Shown here: positions 7,740 to 19,111 of the stretch, piece after piece
Layout: each line of letters opens with the position of its first letter
How positions within the stretch are numbered: the first letter of the stretch is position 1
Source of the DNA: a virus
DNA: 22,466 bases
Reading direction: 5' to 3' (one strand)
IMG/VR virus record: IMGVR_UViG_3300024356_000309
Coordinates: 1-22,466 of that record
The notes under the pieces: generated by a model
What the model saw: the letters and a program-made list of their open reading frames with translations, nothing else
The model's database searches: none
Told to the model about the DNA's origin: nothing
Translations under genes and position numbers: made by a program

Positions 7740-8618
7740 TTACTTTTGATCTTCGCTTAGTACGTCATACATTTCAAATACGCCGCCGTTACGTTCGTAA
7801 ATTAAACCTGCGTATAGATCTGCTTTCATACCTTCGCCTAGTTTAGCAACAGCAACACGTTGAGCCCAGTTGAACAATTCTGTATCAATTGCATCAATTT
7901 GTTGTTGACCGCCGCTTTCTTGAACCAACTGAACCATTTGCTTAAATGTTAGTTTTTGTTCTACACTTTCAGCAACAACTTTCTTAGAAGTTTTAACAGA
8001 TTCGTTTTTCTTGCCACCAAAGTATTTTGCCTGCTTGTCGCTCATACCTTTCTTGCCATCTTTCTTGTTACCGCCTTTTTCGGCAGCAGCTTTTTTCATT
8101 GGCTCTTTCTTGTCACCGTCTTTGTCAATGTCTAAGAAATCTGGCTTTGCACCTTCGTCCATTTTCTTTTCTTTCTTGGCTTTTTTATCTTCTTTATCAG
8201 ACTTTTTAGCCTCAACCATTTTTAGGAATTTAGACTTAAATTGTTCTGGATCTACAGATTCTTTAGCAGACTTACGAGCTTTTTCTTTACGCTTCTTGTC
8301 GTCCTTGTCATCTGAACCTGGATCGTATTCAAACTTGTCACGAGTGTGTTTTACACCTGTTGCAGTTTTTGTTAAAGTACCTGTTGAAGTTTTCTTTGTA
8401 TCGCCAGTTTTAGCATCAGCGTCAAAGCCTTCTTCAACTTCTTCTTTCTTTTCTTCTTTTGCTTTCTTTGCTTCAGCAATGTAAGAAGATTGTCCAGCTA
8501 AAACACGCAATTCTGCGTCTTCGTTTAACTGTACAGATTTTGGTAATTGAGGAGCAGCAGGAGTTTCGATCTTGCCGTCGATGCTCTCAATTTTAGTAAT
8601 TAGTGATTTAAAGTCCAT
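7740..8618 (-). CDS. Lys-rich, probable head-associated protein (292 aa)
   Basis: The middle of this protein (about residues 50-220) is very rich in Lys, Glu, Asp and Ala and probably disordered. It contains DFLDIDKDGDKKEPMKKAAA, a DxDxDG pattern like an EF-hand or dockerin calcium loop that recurs, from memory, in T4-like marine phage proteins. The C-terminal 60 residues look folded: LFNWAQRVAVAKLGEGMKAD then LYAGLIYERNGGVFEMYDVL. The N-terminus MDFKSLITKIESIDG resembles the leader motif of several neighbours. T4 prohead core proteins have a similar charged composition, so a scaffold or internal head role is plausible but unproven. A GATAAATA late-type element lies about 28 nt upstream, an AGGAC site precedes the ATG, and a strong terminator follows. 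Confidence 0.85.
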   Translation of the reverse strand: MDFKSLITKIESIDGKIETPAAPQLPKSVQLNEDAELRVLAGQSSYIAEAKKAKEEKKEEVEEGFDADAKTGDTKKTSTGTLTKTATGVKHTRDKFEYDPGSDDKDDKKRKEKARKSAKESVDPEQFKSKFLKMVEAKKSDKEDKKAKKEKKMDEGAKPDFLDIDKDGDKKEPMKKAAAEKGGNKKDGKKGMSDKQAKYFGGKKNESVKTSKKVVAESVEQKLTFKQMVQLVQESGGQQQIDAIDTELFNWAQRVAVAKLGEGMKADLYAGLIYERNGGVFEMYDVLSEDQK

Positions 8619-8645
8619 AATAAAAGTCCTAAAAGGTGTATACTT

Positions 8646-8653
8646 TATTTATC
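8646..8653 (-). promoter_or_regulatory. Late-promoter-like octamer GATAAATA
   Basis: GATAAATA on the minus strand lies 28-35 nt before the ATG of the Lys-rich protein gene, in the gap after the 81-aa gene. It differs by one base from the T4 late octamer TATAAATA and fits the looser NATAAATA described for T4-like cyanophages. Confidence 0.5.
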
Positions 8654-8894
8654 TTTTAATGAAGTTGCCTTCGCCAAAGATATTAGTTTTCATATTTAAT
8701 GCGTTATCTGTTGGCTTTTGTTTCTTGGGTTTAGGCTGCGGAGGAGCCTTTGTGCCAGATTTTCCCGGGCTACCAGTATAGCTTGTTTTTCCACGAGCTT
8801 TTCCTGGGCTAATATGCGGATTTGCAACGGTAGCAATATTACCTGCTGAAGTAGCACCTGCTGTGGCTGTTTCTAAAAGTTCACTTATTTTCAT
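8649..8894 (-). CDS. 81-aa Gly/Lys/Pro-rich phage protein
   Basis: The protein starts MKISELLETATAGATSAGNI, continues with NPHISPGKARGKTSYTGSPG and a PPQPKPKKQKP tract, and ends IFGEGNFIKR. It is small, basic and low in hydrophobic residues apart from the N-terminal motif, so it is probably extended or disordered. Close relatives recur, from memory, in T4-like marine phages without a function. The first eight residues (MKISELLE) match the capsid-targeting-like pattern of its neighbours. It has no clear ribosome site: the ATG sits 5 nt after a GATAAATA octamer that overlaps the stop of the upstream GH19 gene, so it may be translated by coupling. Confidence 0.8.
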   Translation of the reverse strand: MKISELLETATAGATSAGNIATVANPHISPGKARGKTSYTGSPGKSGTKAPPQPKPKKQKPTDNALNMKTNIFGEGNFIKR

Positions 8895-8899
8895 ATTAA

Positions 8900-8907
8900 T
8901 ATTTATC
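8900..8907 (-). promoter_or_regulatory. Late-promoter-like octamer GATAAATA overlapping a stop codon
   Basis: The octamer contains the TAA stop of the GH19 gene and ends 5 nt before the next ATG. If used as a promoter, transcription would start at or inside that start codon. Because it overlaps a stop codon it may be coincidental. Confidence 0.3.
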
Positions 8908-9628
8908 GCATAGCTAGCTGGAATGCTTGATGTTTTTCTTTACGTTGATCTAGATGTTTCATTCCTGGATTAATTGGTTTAGTTACAGATTTTGTATCTT
9001 TAAAACTATCAACTTTATTAGCAACACGGGTTTTCCAATACCATACTGCAACTTTGGCAGCAACTTCAGGTTTTTCTACAAGCTCTGGATGTTTTTCTAA
9101 AGGAAGACCTAGAGCTTCTCCGGCTTTTTTATAATTTTCTCGTCCAGTTAACTGAATATAACCACGTCCCTTATATTTGGCACCGTCCCCTGCTTGTTTG
9201 TTTCCTAAAATTTTTGCCTTGCGAGGAGCGTATCTAGGATCGTATTTTTTAAAATCTAAAGATCCACCAATTTCTTTCATATGTTTAAAGTCTAATGTTT
9301 CGTGAGCACATTGAGCTAGAAACGCAGCAAGCTCTGGCCCTTTTATACCTGCTTTCTCAGCAGCCTTTTTAAGGTACACTTCGTGCGGATTTCCTGTAAC
9401 AGATTTAGCAACATCTTTTTTGCTAATTGTTTTTAACGGATCTACTTTTTTGGTATGTTGTTGTTTTGCCTGTTGTACAATTGCAGGTTTATCGTTTTGG
9501 TTTTTTACTTTGCCTGCCTCTGCACTAGGACTGTGCCCTAATGCGGCAGCACCTAAAGCAGCACCGGCTACCCAGTCTTTCCAACCTTCCTCTAATTCTT
9601 GAGGAGTAATAAACTCTGCTGCTCTCAT
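8903..9628 (-). CDS. GH19 chitinase/lysozyme-like hydrolase, second copy, with unusual N-terminus
   Basis: The GH19 domain occupies about residues 80-241. FLAQCAHETLDFKHM carries the predicted catalytic Glu110, and KYKGRGYIQLTGRENY is the family's substrate-cleft signature. Enzymes of this family cut peptidoglycan or chitin. Residues 1-75 are not part of the domain. They comprise [15 protein letters not shown], then a small-residue hydrophobic stretch WVAGAALGAAALG with an SAEAG that could be a signal-peptidase-like site, then a polar Lys/Gln linker. The leader resembles capsid-targeting sequences, and LEE/G fits the T4 gp21 cleavage rule. This suggests a virion-borne hydrolase, distinct from the lysis-block GH19 at 18476-19111. 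The ATG overlaps the preceding stop (ATGA). Confidence 0.88.
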   Translation of the reverse strand: MRAAEFITPQELEEGWKDWVAGAALGAAALGHSPSAEAGKVKNQNDKPAIVQQAKQQHTKKVDPLKTISKKDVAKSVTGNPHEVYLKKAAEKAGIKGPELAAFLAQCAHETLDFKHMKEIGGSLDFKKYDPRYAPRKAKILGNKQAGDGAKYKGRGYIQLTGRENYKKAGEALGLPLEKHPELVEKPEVAAKVAVWYWKTRVANKVDSFKDTKSVTKPINPGMKHLDQRKEKHQAFQLAMR

Positions 9629-9819
9629 ACTTGACTAAAGGGATTAATTTTTTCGTCGGAGTCAATGCTTTGTTTTTCTGGATATACTAGATACGTGTCT
9701 ACACCAGCAATACCTCCCATAAACATTCCTTCTTTCATTTTATGAATAGGATCGTTGGGATCTAAGACGCAGTCTTCTTCACTGGTTTGTACATTATATG
9801 TTACACGATATTGTTTCAT
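9625..9819 (-). CDS. Small protein of unknown function (64 aa)
   Basis: The sequence begins [20 protein letters not shown] and contains [21 protein letters not shown] do not recognise it. The alternating pattern at the start (YRVTYNV) suggests a beta strand, and there is no membrane segment or signal peptide. It is tightly coupled: its ATG overlaps the Fe-S carrier stop (ATGA at 9816-9819), and its own stop overlaps the GH19 start (9625-9628). Its place between the Fe-S carrier and the hydrolase gives no clear hint of function. Confidence 0.75.
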
Positions 9820-10139
9820 ACAGCAAAACTACTCCCACATCCACAGGTTGTTTGAGCATTTGGATTTTTAATTACAAATTGACTGCCCATTAACTCTTCT
9901 TTATAATCTATGACAGCACCTTGTAGGTATTGCATACTCATAGAATCAACAAGAACTTTAAAATTTTCTAAAGGAATTTCGAAATCATCTTCGTTTTGTT
10001 CCTCGTCAAATGTAAATCCATAACTGAAACCAGCACAGCCTCCGCCTTGTACAAAGGTTCGAAGAGCTAGTTTAGGATTGTTTTCATCAATCAATAAATC
10101 TACGATTTTACTTTTAGCTGATTCAGTTATCTCAATCAT
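9816..10139 (-). CDS. A-type iron-sulfur cluster carrier (IscA/ErpA/HesB family)
   Basis: The 107 residues match a full-length A-type carrier. The start is [15 protein letters not shown], the first ligand is Cys35 in [14 protein letters not shown], and Cys99 and Cys101 lie in the C-terminal TTCGCGSSF. All three conserved cysteines are present, so it should be able to bind and transfer a Fe-S cluster. Length and motif spacing equal the bacterial proteins IscA and ErpA, and which of these it replaces cannot be decided. The gene is coupled to its neighbours (TAATG with the upstream gene, ATGA with the downstream one). It may support host or phage Fe-S enzymes during infection, but no obvious Fe-S client is encoded in this window. 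Confidence 0.95.
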
Positions 10140-10732
10140 TATGCAGTAGCCTTTTCACCTGTTCTAGATACTTCCCATTTCTTGCCAGTCTGTGCAGTTT
10201 TCTTACGGCACATATCTTGTAATCTACGAAGCTGAGCCATTTCTCTGTAATCGTCGGCATATGTTCCTTGACCTTGAAATACTTTCCATTTCTTGCCGTT
10301 AATGTAGATAGCAAAGTTGTTTGGAGGTTCTGTATTACCTTCGTCCCAGTCGTCTTCTCTATTTCTACGTCCAAATCCGCTTACGCTACTATCATAGTCT
10401 CTTTGATAAGCATCACGTCCAAAACCTGCTTCTGCCATACCTTTTTGCTTTGCTTCTTTTTCTAGGTCTGCCTTGCGTTGAATAATGGCCTGTTTAATTT
10501 CAGGATCTTTTCCGGCAATTGGATCCATTTGTAGGTCTTGTAGGGCTTTGCGTTTTGCTTGAAGGTCATCTTTATTGCGAAGTTCAGTTTCATCGACTTT
10601 ATTCTTGTGCTTAACATCACCTTGCTTTTGTGCTTTCTTTTTATCTTTGTGTGCGCCGGCACCGCTAGTTTTTTGATTCTTAGCTACAAAGTTTCTTGGT
10701 TTACTTGTTGGTATAATATCTTTTGCTCTCAT
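10139..10732 (-). CDS. Conserved phage protein with basic N-terminus and C-terminal folded domain
   Basis: The 197-residue protein starts [20 protein letters not shown], a leader like its neighbours'. A Lys/Gln-rich, probably disordered or coiled segment follows to about residue 98. A linker with [20 protein letters not shown] and EDDWDEGN then leads to a compact C-terminal domain: [20 protein letters not shown], then [20 protein letters not shown] and GKKWEV. The repeated KKW and YING strands suggest a small mixed alpha/beta domain. I recall the same C-terminal module in T4-like marine phages but know no function. Its start overlaps the nucleotidyltransferase stop by 4 nt, and its stop overlaps the Fe-S carrier start by 1 nt. 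Confidence 0.82.
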
Positions 10733-11703
10733 GACGACCTCTTTTGTTTTGGACCCTTACGTTCCTTCCATTTTTTATCTGTCGAACACCAATAGCGTCC
10801 GTATCCTTCCTCAATGCTGTCAATCATAGGATCGATACCTCTACTACGTATTCCGCCTTTCTTACGAATTTTTGCAAGCTCTTCTAAAGCATGACGAATT
10901 TGTTCAACATTCATTTTTAATTCATCAAATTGTCTTACCATAGTCTGCCATTCGCCTGGGCTAGCACCATCAACTCTACTGGCTAAATCTTTGATTTGAC
11001 CCGCTGCTCTTAACATTCTATATTTAAGTTTAGCAGGATTAGCTTTGTTGTGACTATGAATCATAGGATCCATTGGATCAGCAGGATCTAATTCGATAGG
11101 TGCTTCTGAAATACTTTCGGTAATTTTCATACCTTTACGAACAGCAACAAATAAAGGTTTAGCAAGTTCCCCTGCACCTGTTGCTTCTTTAAATCCTTCA
11201 AAATCGTTATTGGCAGCGGCAGCTCTTGCTCCACTGGCACTTACACCAGCAACGCCTTCTGCACCATCTTCTCTATCTCCGCTTGATACAAAATCTAGAA
11301 CATCAAATTTATAGAAACCGTGTGCTTTACCTTCAACACCGTTGTATCCTTCTAACAATTTTTTCATATCTTCTAAACGATCACTACCTGCAACAAACGT
11401 AGCTGCATTATAGCCGTTATCATAAAGATAAGAAGCAACTTTTACAACTGTATTAAGACCGGCATTATCTACAACATCTTTAGCATATTCTGGAAACATT
11501 TCTTTAATAAACTTTATTTTAGTTCCATAATCTAAAGGATTCTTTTTAGCATCTTGACTTTGACTAACAAATATCTGCATATCTCCGCCCTGGGCTTTCA
11601 TAGTATCTAATACCTGCTTATGGCCAATGGTAGGTGGATTCATTCTGCCAAAGCAAAATGTAACGTGTTTTGTTCCGCCTTCAAATAATTCAAACAATAA
11701 CAT
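10729..11703 (-). CDS. Cytidylyltransferase-like nucleotidyltransferase with C-terminal extension
   Basis: Residues about 12-190 form a nucleotidyltransferase domain. FGRMNPPTIGH at 18-28 is the HxGH-type nucleotide-binding motif, AGSDRLEDM follows near 105, and VSASGAR at 154-160 corresponds to the ISSTxxR motif. The family includes NMN, pantetheine-phosphate and glycerol-phosphate adenylyl/cytidylyltransferases; the substrate cannot be told from sequence. The leader MLLFELFEGG precedes the domain and resembles the T4 Alt head-targeting leader, with LFE/G fitting a prohead-protease site. After a linker with two further IxE sites (ITESISEAP), residues 210-324 form a second, helical, basic module containing EQIRHALEELAKIRKKGG. 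Overlaps of 1 and 4 nt link it to its neighbours. Confidence 0.88.
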   Translation of the reverse strand: MLLFELFEGGTKHVTFCFGRMNPPTIGHKQVLDTMKAQGGDMQIFVSQSQDAKKNPLDYGTKIKFIKEMFPEYAKDVVDNAGLNTVVKVASYLYDNGYNAATFVAGSDRLEDMKKLLEGYNGVEGKAHGFYKFDVLDFVSSGDREDGAEGVAGVSASGARAAAANNDFEGFKEATGAGELAKPLFVAVRKGMKITESISEAPIELDPADPMDPMIHSHNKANPAKLKYRMLRAAGQIKDLASRVDGASPGEWQTMVRQFDELKMNVEQIRHALEELAKIRKKGGIRSRGIDPMIDSIEEGYGRYWCSTDKKWKERKGPKQKRSS

Positions 11704-12038
11704 TACTTGTAATCGCCTTTTTCTATATGTTTTTCTTGTTCATCTGCAATGCGTTTGGCAAGATCGATTAATTTTTCTTTGGGGAATTTTTCTTCTTTAT
11801 CTTTAATATCAAATTTATCGCAATAATGTCCTACTGCTGTTTCAATAGGTCTAATGTATATTTTAAATACGTGAGGATTACCCTTGTGTTCTCTATGTTT
11901 TTTAATGGCAGGGAAGAAGTGCTGATCTAAAATTCCTGTATCGTTGTCAATAAAGAACTTTAAATCGTCTAACCAGTCAATATCTTGCTGGTCGTCTTTT
12001 GGTGCACCAATAGGGCTAAACATTTCTTTCAATAACAT
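11703..12038 (-). CDS. Conserved phage protein of unknown function (111 aa)
   Basis: The protein starts MLLKEMFSPIGAPKDDQQDI and continues WLDDLKFFIDNDTGILDQHF and FPAIKKHREHKGNP. The C-terminus is helical and charged (KEKLIDLAKRIADEQEKHIE). I recall close relatives in T4-like marine phages but no known function. The N-terminal MLLKEMFSP shares the leader-like pattern of neighbouring genes and of T4 gp22 (MLKEQLIAE). A GATAAATA element lies 25-32 nt upstream, and the leader between them can fold into a short hairpin (AGTATC with GATACT). Its stop overlaps the nucleotidyltransferase start by 1 nt. Confidence 0.82.
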   Translation of the reverse strand: MLLKEMFSPIGAPKDDQQDIDWLDDLKFFIDNDTGILDQHFFPAIKKHREHKGNPHVFKIYIRPIETAVGHYCDKFDIKDKEEKFPKEKLIDLAKRIADEQEKHIEKGDYK

Positions 12039-12062
12039 AGTATCTTCCGTAAGATGATACTA

Positions 12063-12070
12063 TATTTATC
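12063..12070 (-). promoter_or_regulatory. Late-promoter-like octamer GATAAATA
   Basis: GATAAATA on the minus strand lies in the 44-nt gap between genes and 25 nt before the ATG at 12038. It is the best placed of the five octamers, because it is intergenic, does not overlap a stop codon and has a short leader. Confidence 0.55.
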
Positions 12071-12082
12071 GAAAGTTTACTG

Positions 12083-12457
12083 TTAGCAATTATAACGGAC
12101 CGCAATAATTTGGCCGTCTTCGATGTGGTATTTTGCGCGAATAAACACAAATTTTCCGGTAATATTTGTGCTTCTATTAGAATTTGAGCTATCTAAATCA
12201 AACGTTTCTGTATGAACGTCAAACCAATCATTATCACCGGGGTGAAGTTCTAAAGTTGCTTGTAAAGCAATAGTACCTACAAATCCCTCAGTATGAAACA
12301 AGACAGTATGTATTCCGCTGCCGTTTTTATAATATCCTGCGCCTCTGCTTTTATCGGAATAAAATACCGCATCTGCATCTGTGCCTGCATCATAATCTCT
12401 GTTATATGCAGAATGCACACTGATATTTTCTAATAAATTAAAGGTTTCAAAGCTCAT
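12083..12457 (-). CDS. Probable virion beta-sandwich protein, function unknown (124 aa)
   Basis: The protein starts MSFETFNLLENISVHSAYNR. Its second half reads like a beta-sandwich: GSGIHTVLFHTEGFVGTIAL, then QATLELHPGDNDWFDVHTET, NITGKFVFIRAKYHI and a final GQIIAVRYNC. That pattern (strands with HP/PGxxDW turns) resembles phage decoration, neck or fibre domains seen in T4-like marine phages, but I cannot name the family. The leader contains NLLE/N, which could be a prohead-protease-like site. The ATG at 12457 was chosen; a GTG one codon upstream is also possible. There is no good ribosome site, and the start lies 4 nt after a stop codon, so coupling is likely. Confidence 0.75.
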   Translation of the reverse strand: MSFETFNLLENISVHSAYNRDYDAGTDADAVFYSDKSRGAGYYKNGSGIHTVLFHTEGFVGTIALQATLELHPGDNDWFDVHTETFDLDSSNSNRSTNITGKFVFIRAKYHIEDGQIIAVRYNC

Positions 12458-12460
12458 CAC

Positions 12461-13141
12461 TTATTTATCGGAAATAACAAAGTTGTAGATTCGACCTACG
12501 ACTTCCGAATTACGGAGTTTTAGCATCAGCAGAGTAGCTTCGTCTTCAACTAATACATACCTTCTATCCCAATTCCAGTCAGTGTTTAAAAACCAATTTT
12601 CTACAGCAGGTGTGCAAGTAACTTTACCATCTTGTTTCTTAAGCCAATCCAGATAACGTTGTTTTCCTTCTTTATCGCCTTTCATTTTGTGAGGTAATAG
12701 ATATACTCTATAATTATACCTACCTTTGGGCAATTTATCTACAGTGATATAATTTTGATTAGAATTTAATAGATCAATGCTAGAAGTACTAGGTTCAAAC
12801 CGATGCCGTAAGATATATTCAAACGATGTAGAAATTAAATCATAAAAAGAATTGTCGTTAGTGTATACGTCAATCAGACCACTTTCTATTCTTAGGCTAT
12901 ATAGATCTGCGGTATATTTTTTTAAAAATTGAACAAACGGAAGAATAACATCTTTATTATGCCAAGCTCTTTGTTTAAAAGAAAAATGATTTGTGTCTGG
13001 ATCTGGACCTAGACAAAATTGTTCTACTTCATCTAAATTTTTAGTTCTTAACAAGGCACAGCCTTCTATTGTAAAGCTGGCCTTGTATAACCATTTACCG
13101 TAAAATTTACGAGTTGTCTGTTTGGTCTTCTGTGATAGCAT
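12461..13141 (-). CDS. Protein of unknown function (226 aa)
   Basis: I do not recognise this protein. It starts MLSQKTKQTTRKFYGKWLYK, is rich in aromatic and basic residues and contains EQFCLGPDPDTNHFSFKQRA, SFEYILRHRFEPSTSSIDLL and ENWFLNTDWNWDRRYVLVED. It has no membrane segment, signal peptide or nucleotide-binding motif. The ATG lies 35 nt inside the 3' end of the clpA-like gene in another frame, preceded by AAGG, so its translation is probably linked to ClpA. It is not a gp62 clamp-loader subunit by any pattern I can see. It may act with the chaperone pair or belong to the head genes downstream. Confidence 0.75.
   Translation of the reverse strand: MLSQKTKQTTRKFYGKWLYKASFTIEGCALLRTKNLDEVEQFCLGPDPDTNHFSFKQRAWHNKDVILPFVQFLKKYTADLYSLRIESGLIDVYTNDNSFYDLISTSFEYILRHRFEPSTSSIDLLNSNQNYITVDKLPKGRYNYRVYLLPHKMKGDKEGKQRYLDWLKKQDGKVTCTPAVENWFLNTDWNWDRRYVLVEDEATLLMLKLRNSEVVGRIYNFVISDK
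12462..12469 (-). promoter_or_regulatory. Late-promoter-like octamer GATAAATA overlapping a stop codon
   Basis: The octamer spans the final Asp-Lys-stop codons (GAT AAA TAA) of the 226-aa gene and ends 4 nt before the next ATG. Use as a promoter is uncertain, because the motif is largely explained by those codons. Confidence 0.3.
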
Positions 13142-18475: not shown

Positions 18476-19111
18476 TTAGGCTCCTAATACGTGTAGTGCG
18501 TGGTTATAATGTTTAATACGATCTTCTAAACCAATAGTACCACCGTTGATACGCTTGGTTAATGTTAGAATGTCACCTTTGTCTGCCCATTGATTTAGGT
18601 TGTTTGTTTCCCAGAACCAGCAAGCTGATTGCACAGCACCTTCGAATGTCTGTAGATATTCACTGGCTTCTTCAACAGGAATATCTAACGACGCAGCAAA
18701 CCAAGTATAGTTTTCTTTACCAGTTAACTGAATAAGGCCGCGACCACAATAACGGAAACCATCGCCGCTATGCTCATCACCGTTGCCCATACGATTTGCA
18801 TAGATTCTATTAGCAATAGCTTCTTGCTTGTTGGGCAATGAAGCATATTGATTAGCAATGTCGTCATTCGGAAAATATTTAGGGAAAATCTTACGTAGAC
18901 TCGGAGCACGATAATTTAAGTTTTCTTTTAAAACTTTGAAACCGCCTGATTCGTGAGCGCATTGTGCTACAAAAGCTGCTACACGCTGCGGAGTATTAAT
19001 TTCGTAATCTGGAAGAATCTCGCATAGTGCATTATACCAATGATCTAGGTATTGATTACCGGGAATCATTTGTCCTAACTGTTCTTTTGTAAAATCAAAC
19101 GTAAAACTCAT
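18476..19111 (-). CDS. GH19 endolysin (lysis cassette copy)
   Basis: The 211 residues are almost entirely a GH19 domain. FVAQCAHESGGFKVLKENLN gives the predicted catalytic Glu54, and FRYCGRGLIQLTGKENY (about 119-135) is the cleft signature. A typical ERIANRxYANRMGNG-like segment lies in between (IANRIYANRMGNG). There is no signal peptide or membrane segment, so it is a cytoplasmic endolysin that needs a holin to reach the cell wall. It is directly followed by spanin genes and then a holin-like gene, which supports this. The other GH19 protein in the window (8903-9628) has a shortened central region and an added leader, so the two are diverged copies with probably different jobs. The start lies 2 nt after the preceding stop, with an AAGGAT site. 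Confidence 0.92.
   Translation of the reverse strand: MSFTFDFTKEQLGQMIPGNQYLDHWYNALCEILPDYEINTPQRVAAFVAQCAHESGGFKVLKENLNYRAPSLRKIFPKYFPNDDIANQYASLPNKQEAIANRIYANRMGNGDEHSGDGFRYCGRGLIQLTGKENYTWFAASLDIPVEEASEYLQTFEGAVQSACWFWETNNLNQWADKGDILTLTKRINGGTIGLEDRIKHYNHALHVLGA

Follow-up and report, generated by a model that had tools for sequence, protein, structure and literature searches.

An operon of nine genes at positions 7740-12457 on the minus strand of the IMG/VR virus record IMGVR_UViG_3300024356_000309 was analyzed, and seven of its proteins start with similar short leaders, while two lack them. The whole record of 22.5 kb (22,466 nucleotides) is called the window, and its gene content reads, in our judgement, as that of a T4-like phage. 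The leaders are very probably capsid-targeting sequences of the T4 kind, which would load diverse cargo into the prohead and would be cut by the prohead protease gp21 where a site exists. Such a sequence was reportedly described by Mullaney and Black for the T4 internal proteins IPI-III and Alt, and to our knowledge a few coliphage proteins are known to carry the T4 leader. The leader motif, its enrichment, the position of the sites, the modularity, the promoter-like sites, the match to T4 and the co-occurrence with virion detection in cyanophages were computed directly. The original prediction had interpreted the leaders as a modular packaging tag, and at the level of sequence this interpretation appears supported, with the main tests mostly in its favor.

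The operon adjoins the genes for DNA polymerase and clamp. Its genes and leaders are listed here, with lengths in amino acids (aa) and the evidence in brackets.

12083-12457, minus strand: 124-aa protein, leader variant MSFETFNLLE/N, with the LxE at residue 10, which is the T4 position
12428-12457, minus strand: leader of the 124-aa protein (sequence)
11703-12038, minus strand: 111-aa protein, leader MLLKEMF (no Pfam match; predicted helical body)
12012-12038, minus strand: leader MLLKEMFSP of the 111-aa protein (sequence)
10729-11703, minus strand: cytidylyltransferase-like protein, leader MLLFELFE/G (PF01467, phrog_3041)
11677-11703, minus strand: leader MLLFELFEG of the cytidylyltransferase-like protein (sequence)
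10139-10732, minus strand: 197-aa Lys-rich protein, leader MRAKDII (DUF7230 similarity, below the cut-off)
10706-10732, minus strand: leader MRAKDIIPT of the 197-aa Lys-rich protein (sequence)
9816-10139, minus strand: IscA-like iron-sulfur (Fe-S) carrier, without leader (PF01521)
9625-9819, minus strand: 64-aa protein, without leader (sequence)
8903-9628, minus strand: GH19 hydrolase, leader MRAAEFI, LEE/G site, then a hydrophobic stretch (PF00182, E 8.4e-14)
9602-9628, minus strand: leader MRAAEFITP of the GH19 hydrolase (sequence)
8649-8894, minus strand: 81-aa protein, leader MKISELLE/T, then a copy of a gp23 segment (gp23 match)
8868-8894, minus strand: leader MKISELLET of the 81-aa protein (sequence)
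7740-8618, minus strand: 292-aa Lys-rich protein, leader variant MDFKSLIT (sequence)
8592-8618, minus strand: leader variant MDFKSLITK of the 292-aa protein (sequence)

The seven starts quoted in the original prediction are all present as written on the minus strand, and most of them indeed fit M-x-x-x-[E/D]-hydrophobic-hydrophobic: five of the seven match this strict motif exactly, and MSFETFNLLE and MDFKSLIT are variants. The Fe-S carrier and the 64-aa protein do lack the motif, and the bodies behind the leaders are as unrelated as had been claimed (PF01467, PF00182, a DUF7230-like protein below the cut-off, and four leader proteins without any Pfam match). The probability of five strict matches in seven leaders is p = 1.6e-8, because the background rate, taken from internal protein positions, is about 1.5%; for five of the nine operon genes it is p = 9e-8.

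The distribution of the motif was analyzed next in the record G001, an IMG/VR record of 134.8 kb that contains the same operon and in which 125 genes were called with a simple gene caller. The cytidylyltransferase and GH19 proteins show 100% identity between this record and the window. Pfam revealed gp21 (PF03420) and gp23 (PF07068), and a presumed portal gene was placed by position. The strict motif is present in 9 of the 125 genes, namely in five of the nine operon genes, in one of 103 others and, near the phage's own head genes, where the original prediction had suggested to look for it, in 3 of the 13 genes of the gp21/gp23 cluster (Fisher 2.2e-6). Altogether, gp21 and gp23 were found in 8 of the 20 records searched, and four records (G001, G004, G006, G014) were read as a whole. 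In these four records and 155 loci, a sample in which relatives were counted and the rows are thus not independent, 406 of 2580 distinct called proteins carry the strict motif (39 expected), and the tight form M[RK]xx[DE]phi-phi-xE, with phi for a hydrophobic residue, was found 152 times (0.13 expected). The leaders often have a basic residue at position 2, a hydrophobic residue or Ala at 3, an acidic residue at 5 and a hydrophobic pair at 6-7. The bodies behind them are more basic than other proteins, with +0.054 versus -0.014 charges per residue, again from rows that are not independent. Third positions of the codons are variable, with 1.2 to 1.7 bit in codons 3-7, and therefore the DNA of the leader is not the level that is conserved. 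Low variation of the second bases in codons 6-7 had also been considered as evidence, but was dropped as circular because the rows had been picked by the motif.

Homologues of the leader proteins, which the original prediction had proposed to align, have kept the strict motif to different extents. It is present in 68 of 68 members of the 81-aa family, in 37 of 41 of the 197-aa Lys-rich family and in 56 of 67 of the 111-aa family, where nine of the eleven non-matches start with MVKL and have the acidic residue at position 6, so that this one family contains both registers. The E5 column is invariant when 39 sequences of the 111-aa family, that of the window among them, are aligned. The cytidylyltransferases have the motif in 43 of 71 cases, and the others comprise 12 near-variants (e.g., MKLRQLFE), one protein with a later leader and 15 whose starts are internal or of another kind. 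The orthologues of the two variant proteins start with MSFETVKLLEN and MGFETLKLLEN in G004 and G014 (124-aa protein) and with MDFKSLLTK, MDFKTLITK and MDFKKLLNT (292-aa protein).

The lowest fraction, 36 of 80, was observed for the GH19 cluster, and the shortfall is mainly due to 34 untagged proteins of the lysis type, which start with MSFTFDF. The window contains one gene of each GH19 type, and the untagged one serves as an internal control:

18476-19111, minus strand: second GH19 protein, MSFTFDF type, without leader (sequence)

This protein is presumably the lysis enzyme. The tagged protein at 8903-9628 is not of the MSFTFDF type, and the GH19 domain itself is present. With the types sorted by ourselves, the strict motif is found in 0 of the 34 lysis-type proteins and in 36 of the 46 cargo-type proteins, of which a further eight are near-matches and two have an internal called start. 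Two other features of the cargo-type GH19 proteins were observed. Residues 15-40 of the window protein, which follow the LEE/G site, form a hydrophobic stretch rich in Ala and Gly, many cargo-type relatives show EGWKDWVAGAALGAAALG or similar, and this stretch could be a signal or membrane segment after removal of the leader. Furthermore, the linkers that join leader and enzyme in the cargo-type proteins of the 155 loci (L001-L155) are mosaics of a small number of recurring modules, e.g., KRPRWAAYGPGPYGGYGY and NFADGKKPGRKGLAKRSGVN, which are shuffled among proteins.

The modularity was also seen when the bodies were clustered at 70% coverage, leaving out proteins of less than 50 aa: 94 clusters have a member with a leader, and in 14 clusters of at least three members the leader is present in at least 80% of the members. 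The clusters are not all independent, because linker modules are shared. Single-linkage clusters had chained 493 proteins via such modules and were replaced. A Pfam search with 20 hand-chosen leader-bearing relatives yielded no match for 12, a match below the cut-off for three and a match above it for five (DUF6321 twice, DUF6267, GP88, and NT5C with GH19).

The next feature was the candidate cleavage site (L/I)xE. In the window it is present in four of the seven leaders, exactly where the original prediction had put it: LFE/G in 10729-11703, LEE/G at residues 12-14 of 8903-9628, LLE/T in 8649-8894 and LLE/N in 12083-12457. Among unique leaders the fraction with (L/I)xE within residues 5-12 is 0.607 (of 359), versus 0.091 of 1939 other proteins. 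E8 is present in 111 of the 170 unique leaders with L or I at position 6, and E9 in 103 of the 196 with L or I at position 7; in both cases 10-14 would be expected from the frequency of E in other proteins, and the peak at residues 8-9 is thus seven- to elevenfold above expectation. A lower expectation of about 5 was set aside, as it ignored the motif's own bias for L/I at positions 6-7. The E is followed in most cases by A, S, T, N, D or G. The protein preceding gp23, which is probably the scaffold, starts with MLDIVKQLFE/N in G001, G004 and G006, and with MLDFVKQLFE/N in G014.

A site of this kind also precedes the N-terminal arm of gp23, where (L/I)xE/[ST] is kept while its neighbors vary: YLAE in G001 and five others, YLSE in G002, NIME in G012, PLME in Phosso and ALFE in RaK2. 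An alignment of LAE41 with the T4 LTE was withdrawn, since MAFFT does not align them. Because the site lies about 12 columns after the T4 gp23 LTE/A, we infer its use as a maturation site and do not read it from the alignment. A head-cluster protein at locus L180 (14226-15188, plus strand), MRINELLTESQQVELQEGPLLNKIGSAVGKGVGTLAKGVG, has two LxE sites and behind them a Gly-rich stretch that resembles a glycine zipper; it is perhaps an ejection protein.

The leaders were then compared with those of T4. The T4 sequences quoted in the original prediction are correct (ipII and ipIII MKTYQEFIAE, alt MELITELFDE, gp22 MLKEQLIAE); it had missed that in ipII, ipIII and alt the core motif stands one residue later than in the window. 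A profile built solely from the leaders of the present records was scored against 256 T4 proteins, and shifts, lightly penalized and ranging from -1 to +2, were allowed only after the fixed register had failed. With these shifts ipII and ipIII occupy ranks 1 and 2, gp61.1 rank 3 and gp24 rank 9. According to the available part of PMC9026906, the first 10 residues of IPIII are enough for targeting, with residues 4 and 7 acting in targeting and residues 8 and 10 in processing. After the shift by one residue these correspond to residues 3, 6, 7 and 9 of the present leaders, and the counterparts of Y4 and F7 are mostly A/L/I at position 3 and F/L/I at position 6. Both groups have in common a short N-terminal leader in which two hydrophobic residues follow an acidic one, its occurrence on unrelated proteins, and phages with gp21 and gp23; the candidate (L/I)xE site of T4 is shared by part of the present leaders. 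In contrast to T4, the leader is one residue shorter here, is found on far more proteins, including enzymes (cytidylyltransferase, GH19 hydrolase), and is grouped in one operon beside replication genes.

Virion proteomes of cultured cyanophages were considered next. The available parts of the respective papers report the cytidylyltransferase T4-GC190 in virions of S-SM1 (PMC3037559), a nicotinamide mononucleotide adenylyltransferase in those of S-SCSM1 (PMC9602691), and a cytidylyltransferase, an S-adenosylmethionine (SAM) hydrolase and a kinase in those of S-CREM2 (Table 3 of PMC10665884). The three transferases start with T4-type leaders, MKKFSAFLNEA (S-SM1), MKSFLQFLKEA (S-SCSM1) and MKNFSSFLTEA (S-CREM2), and the Syn9 cytidyltransferase likewise has one. 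In S-CREM2 the relaxed T4 pattern M..[FYL]..F[LIFMV].E is present in 5 of the 28 non-structural or hypothetical proteins that were detected (the SAM hydrolase, the kinase, the cytidylyltransferase and two hypothetical proteins), in 0 of 24 structural proteins and in 0 of 167 undetected proteins (Fisher 4.4e-5). For the strict T4 pattern the numbers are 3 of 28 versus 0 of 167 (p = 0.0027), and when the 24 structural proteins are counted with the detected ones the values are p = 0.013 (strict) and 6.5e-4 (relaxed). Both patterns were written after the score table had been seen, and the strict one copies T4 residues. Elsewhere the relaxed pattern is found solely in ipII, ipIII and gp61.1 of the T4 gene set and in the cytidyltransferase of Syn9. 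The available parts of the S-SCSM1 and S-CREM2 papers name no targeting route (PMC9602691, PMC10665884), and a literature search joining capsid targeting with cyanophages yielded nothing beyond the T4 review.

The sequence ATAAATA, which we take to be the T4-type late promoter motif, was analyzed as well. Four of the five copies in the window stand just before genes of the operon:

12462-12468, minus strand: ATAAATA, 4 bases before the ATG of 12083-12457
12063-12069, minus strand: ATAAATA, 24 bases before the ATG of 11703-12038
8900-8906, minus strand: ATAAATA, 5 bases before the ATG of 8649-8894
8646-8652, minus strand: ATAAATA, 27 bases before the ATG of 7740-8618

The four sites are present before the orthologous genes in four of four cases in G014, three of four in G004 and two of four in G006. 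In G001, 12 of the 15 copies of [AG]ATAAATA lie within 50 bases before a called gene, and such zones make up 2.2% of both strands.

These results suggest the following course of events, in which we infer core binding, cleavage by gp21 in this phage, and injection. The operon would be transcribed late in infection, partly from its own late promoters. During assembly on the portal the first 8-10 residues would bind the scaffolding core, and the proteins would thereby be enclosed in the prohead. The protease gp21 would probably cut the leaders after (L/I)xE at residues 8-10, where it is present, and free the cargo; the leaders without a site may stay uncut or may be cut elsewhere. The DNA would be packed around the freed cargo, for which basic bodies would be suited, and at infection the cell would receive the cargo (nucleotidyltransferase, muralytic enzyme, Lys-rich proteins and others) along with the DNA.

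Several results weigh against this course of events. ATAAATA is not enriched in the window (5 copies versus 8.7 expected), and it is the placement that speaks for the sites. Three of the seven window leaders have no (L/I)xE nearby. With the fixed register ipI, ipII, ipIII and alt all had negative profile scores (-5.6 for ipII and ipIII) and none was among the best 22, and even with shifts ipI ranked 13th, alt 17th, gp22 27th, gp67 74th, gp68 118th and gp23 245th, while ranks 4-8 were taken by proteins outside our list of T4 head proteins. In S-CREM2 the scores of the shifted profile did not differ significantly between the 28 detected non-structural and the 167 undetected proteins (p = 0.12, Mann-Whitney), and the relaxed pattern is missing from 23 of those 28. 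The genes 89-97 of S-SCSM1, among them the transferase gene, encode seven proteins (of nine) that are annotated as virion proteins, and of these seven the transferase alone clearly has a leader. The cytidylyltransferase was not detected in an earlier S-PM2 virion study, as told in the accessible part of PMC3037559; the accessible part of the S-CREM1 paper, on 14 virion proteins, contains no word starting with cytidyl- (PMC9964418); and in those of the S-CREM2 and S-SCSM1 papers the authors warn of co-purified contaminants (PMC10665884, PMC9602691).

Different explanations of the shared starts have to be weighed against this evidence. The leader could be a docking tag for another shared partner, such as a tail, membrane or replication complex, and its likeness to T4 could be a convergence on a short amphipathic motif. 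The shortness of the motif, the three window leaders without a cleavage site and the location beside the DNA polymerase and clamp genes would all agree with this. It is nevertheless improbable, as the strict motif is confined to the operon, the head cluster and one other gene in G001, the (L/I)xE peak exists, ipII and ipIII are the best T4 matches, and in S-CREM2 T4-type leaders go together with detection in the virion. Much less probable still is a recent duplication or recombination of the start region with its ribosome-binding site, held by constraints on DNA or translation. Leaders within one genome can indeed be close, e.g., MRAKEFI, MRAQEFI and MRAKEFV in G006, but codons and upstream DNA differ between leader genes of one genome, third codon bases vary across all leaders, and the spacing of (L/I)xE would have no reason for being kept.

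Another explanation accepts that the leaders target the core, but proposes that the proteins are core builders that gp21 degrades, as it does gp22 and gp67, and that leave the virion. It shares the targeting step with the loading of cargo, and for single proteins the two do not exclude each other. T4 gp22, gp67 and gp68 are core proteins that are cut to fragments (PMC5694885, available part), and an 83-aa protein starting with MLLNEFF sits in the head cluster. However, homologues of the enzymes are reported in mature cyanophage virions, and enzyme domains would presumably be purposeless in a scaffold; we thus regard this explanation as unlikely. The loading of diverse cargo by T4-like leaders remains the best explanation.

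The 81-aa protein of the operon has an additional feature, i.e., directly behind the LxE junction it repeats a segment of the gp23 of the same phage: MKISELLE/TATAGATSAGNIAT compares with YLAE/SATAGATSAGNVAT of gp23. The copy comprises residues 9-23, and its source is the gp23 segment that follows LAE41:

8826-8870, minus strand: gp23-arm mimic TATAGATSAGNIATV in the 81-aa protein (alignment score)

In the four whole records the 81-aa protein or its orthologue is the best match of the gp23 arm in the proteome or is second to one longer protein. In G001 the score is 70 versus 37 for the next protein, and 0, 0, 1 and 0 of 100 shuffled arms reached the top score in the four records (0 in G001). 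The uncharacterized gp61.1 of T4 (phrog_1823) is similar: this small protein starts with the T4-type leader MKTFKEFIKE and then repeats the part of gp23 that comes after FLTE. It aligns with T4 gp23 across the FLTE site with a score of 82 (next protein 46). The window protein differs in that it copies the gp23 arm of its own lineage and scores 21-23 against seven T4-type arms, and it is not a member of the gp61.1 family: it matches phrog_17311 only, while gp61.1 matches phrog_1823 and phrog_2086. Further examples are Syn9 gp190 (score 103 versus its own gp23, next 43), S-CREM2 gp160 (95, next 41) and, by eye, S-SCSM1 97; the latter two are virion proteins by published data. In KVP40, PX29, AbTZA1 and phiKp_12 the arm stands behind a longer N-terminal part instead of a leader, and some annotations call such arm genes capsid proteins.

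Ten phages were compared, and their mimics form three classes: seven are T4-type, two are from cyanophages and one is from this lineage. The mimics of each class match the gp23 arms within that class, but scarcely the arms of the other two. That each mimic fits its own phage best was rejected, because within the seven T4-type phages PX29 alone was self-best, and covariation of mimic and arm on a fine scale is thus unsupported. In the literature searched no published account of the relation was found. We see roughly even chances that T4-like phages generally possess a capsid-arm mimic, i.e., a protein that copies the mature N-terminal arm of their own major capsid protein, in T4 and this lineage right behind a targeting leader and cleavage site. 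Head maturation would then expose the arm, and the protein with anything fused to it would be docked into the shell's arm sites. The gp61.1 of T4 could be taken as the model case, and the mimic would have tracked the arm through three sequence classes. Its role could be to fill arm sites, to anchor cargo or to time the protease.

A comparable neighborhood exists in cyanophages, where the cluster from the cytidyltransferase to the gp61 primase (Syn9 gp184-gp190, S-SM1, S-SCSM1, S-CREM2) also contains a leader-bearing transferase and a gp23-arm protein as neighbors. It differs in that the leader is in the T4 register, the arm proteins have no clear leader and most other members lack a leader. 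Leader-like motifs were also observed away from annotated starts, at the C-terminus of the S-SCSM1 virion protein 93 (KRTFKEFLEYIE; locus L248, 41626-41835, plus strand) and as LRFASFMAEA at about residues 17-26 of an S-CREM2 virion protein annotated as Cas9-like (locus L221, 7704-10313, minus strand). The propeptides of SPN3US and phiKZ-like phages are another parallel. According to the available part of PMC5694885, the N-termini of head proteins are cut there by the prohead protease after Glu and have been proposed to target cargo as well; several are longer than 100 residues, and the motif of SPN3US is A-x-E.

Two further proteins of the operon were characterized. The 124-aa protein weakly resembles a PHROG of virion structural proteins (E 0.006). 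For the 111-aa protein an AlphaFold model with a mean predicted local distance difference test score of 86.5 (about 50 for residues 1-20) predicts a helical body behind 20 disordered residues. A fold search against the PDB yielded no match at E <= 0.001, and the best match in a viral fold library (E 3.2e-3) was an uncharacterized protein that gave no function.

Taken together, the same kind of tag is found on dozens of unrelated bodies in aquatic phages, which would offer a mechanism for the puzzling presence of enzymes in cyanophage virions. The leader may serve as a predictor of head cargo that can be read genome-wide, and the gp23-arm mimic would offer gp61.1 of T4 a testable role in the head.

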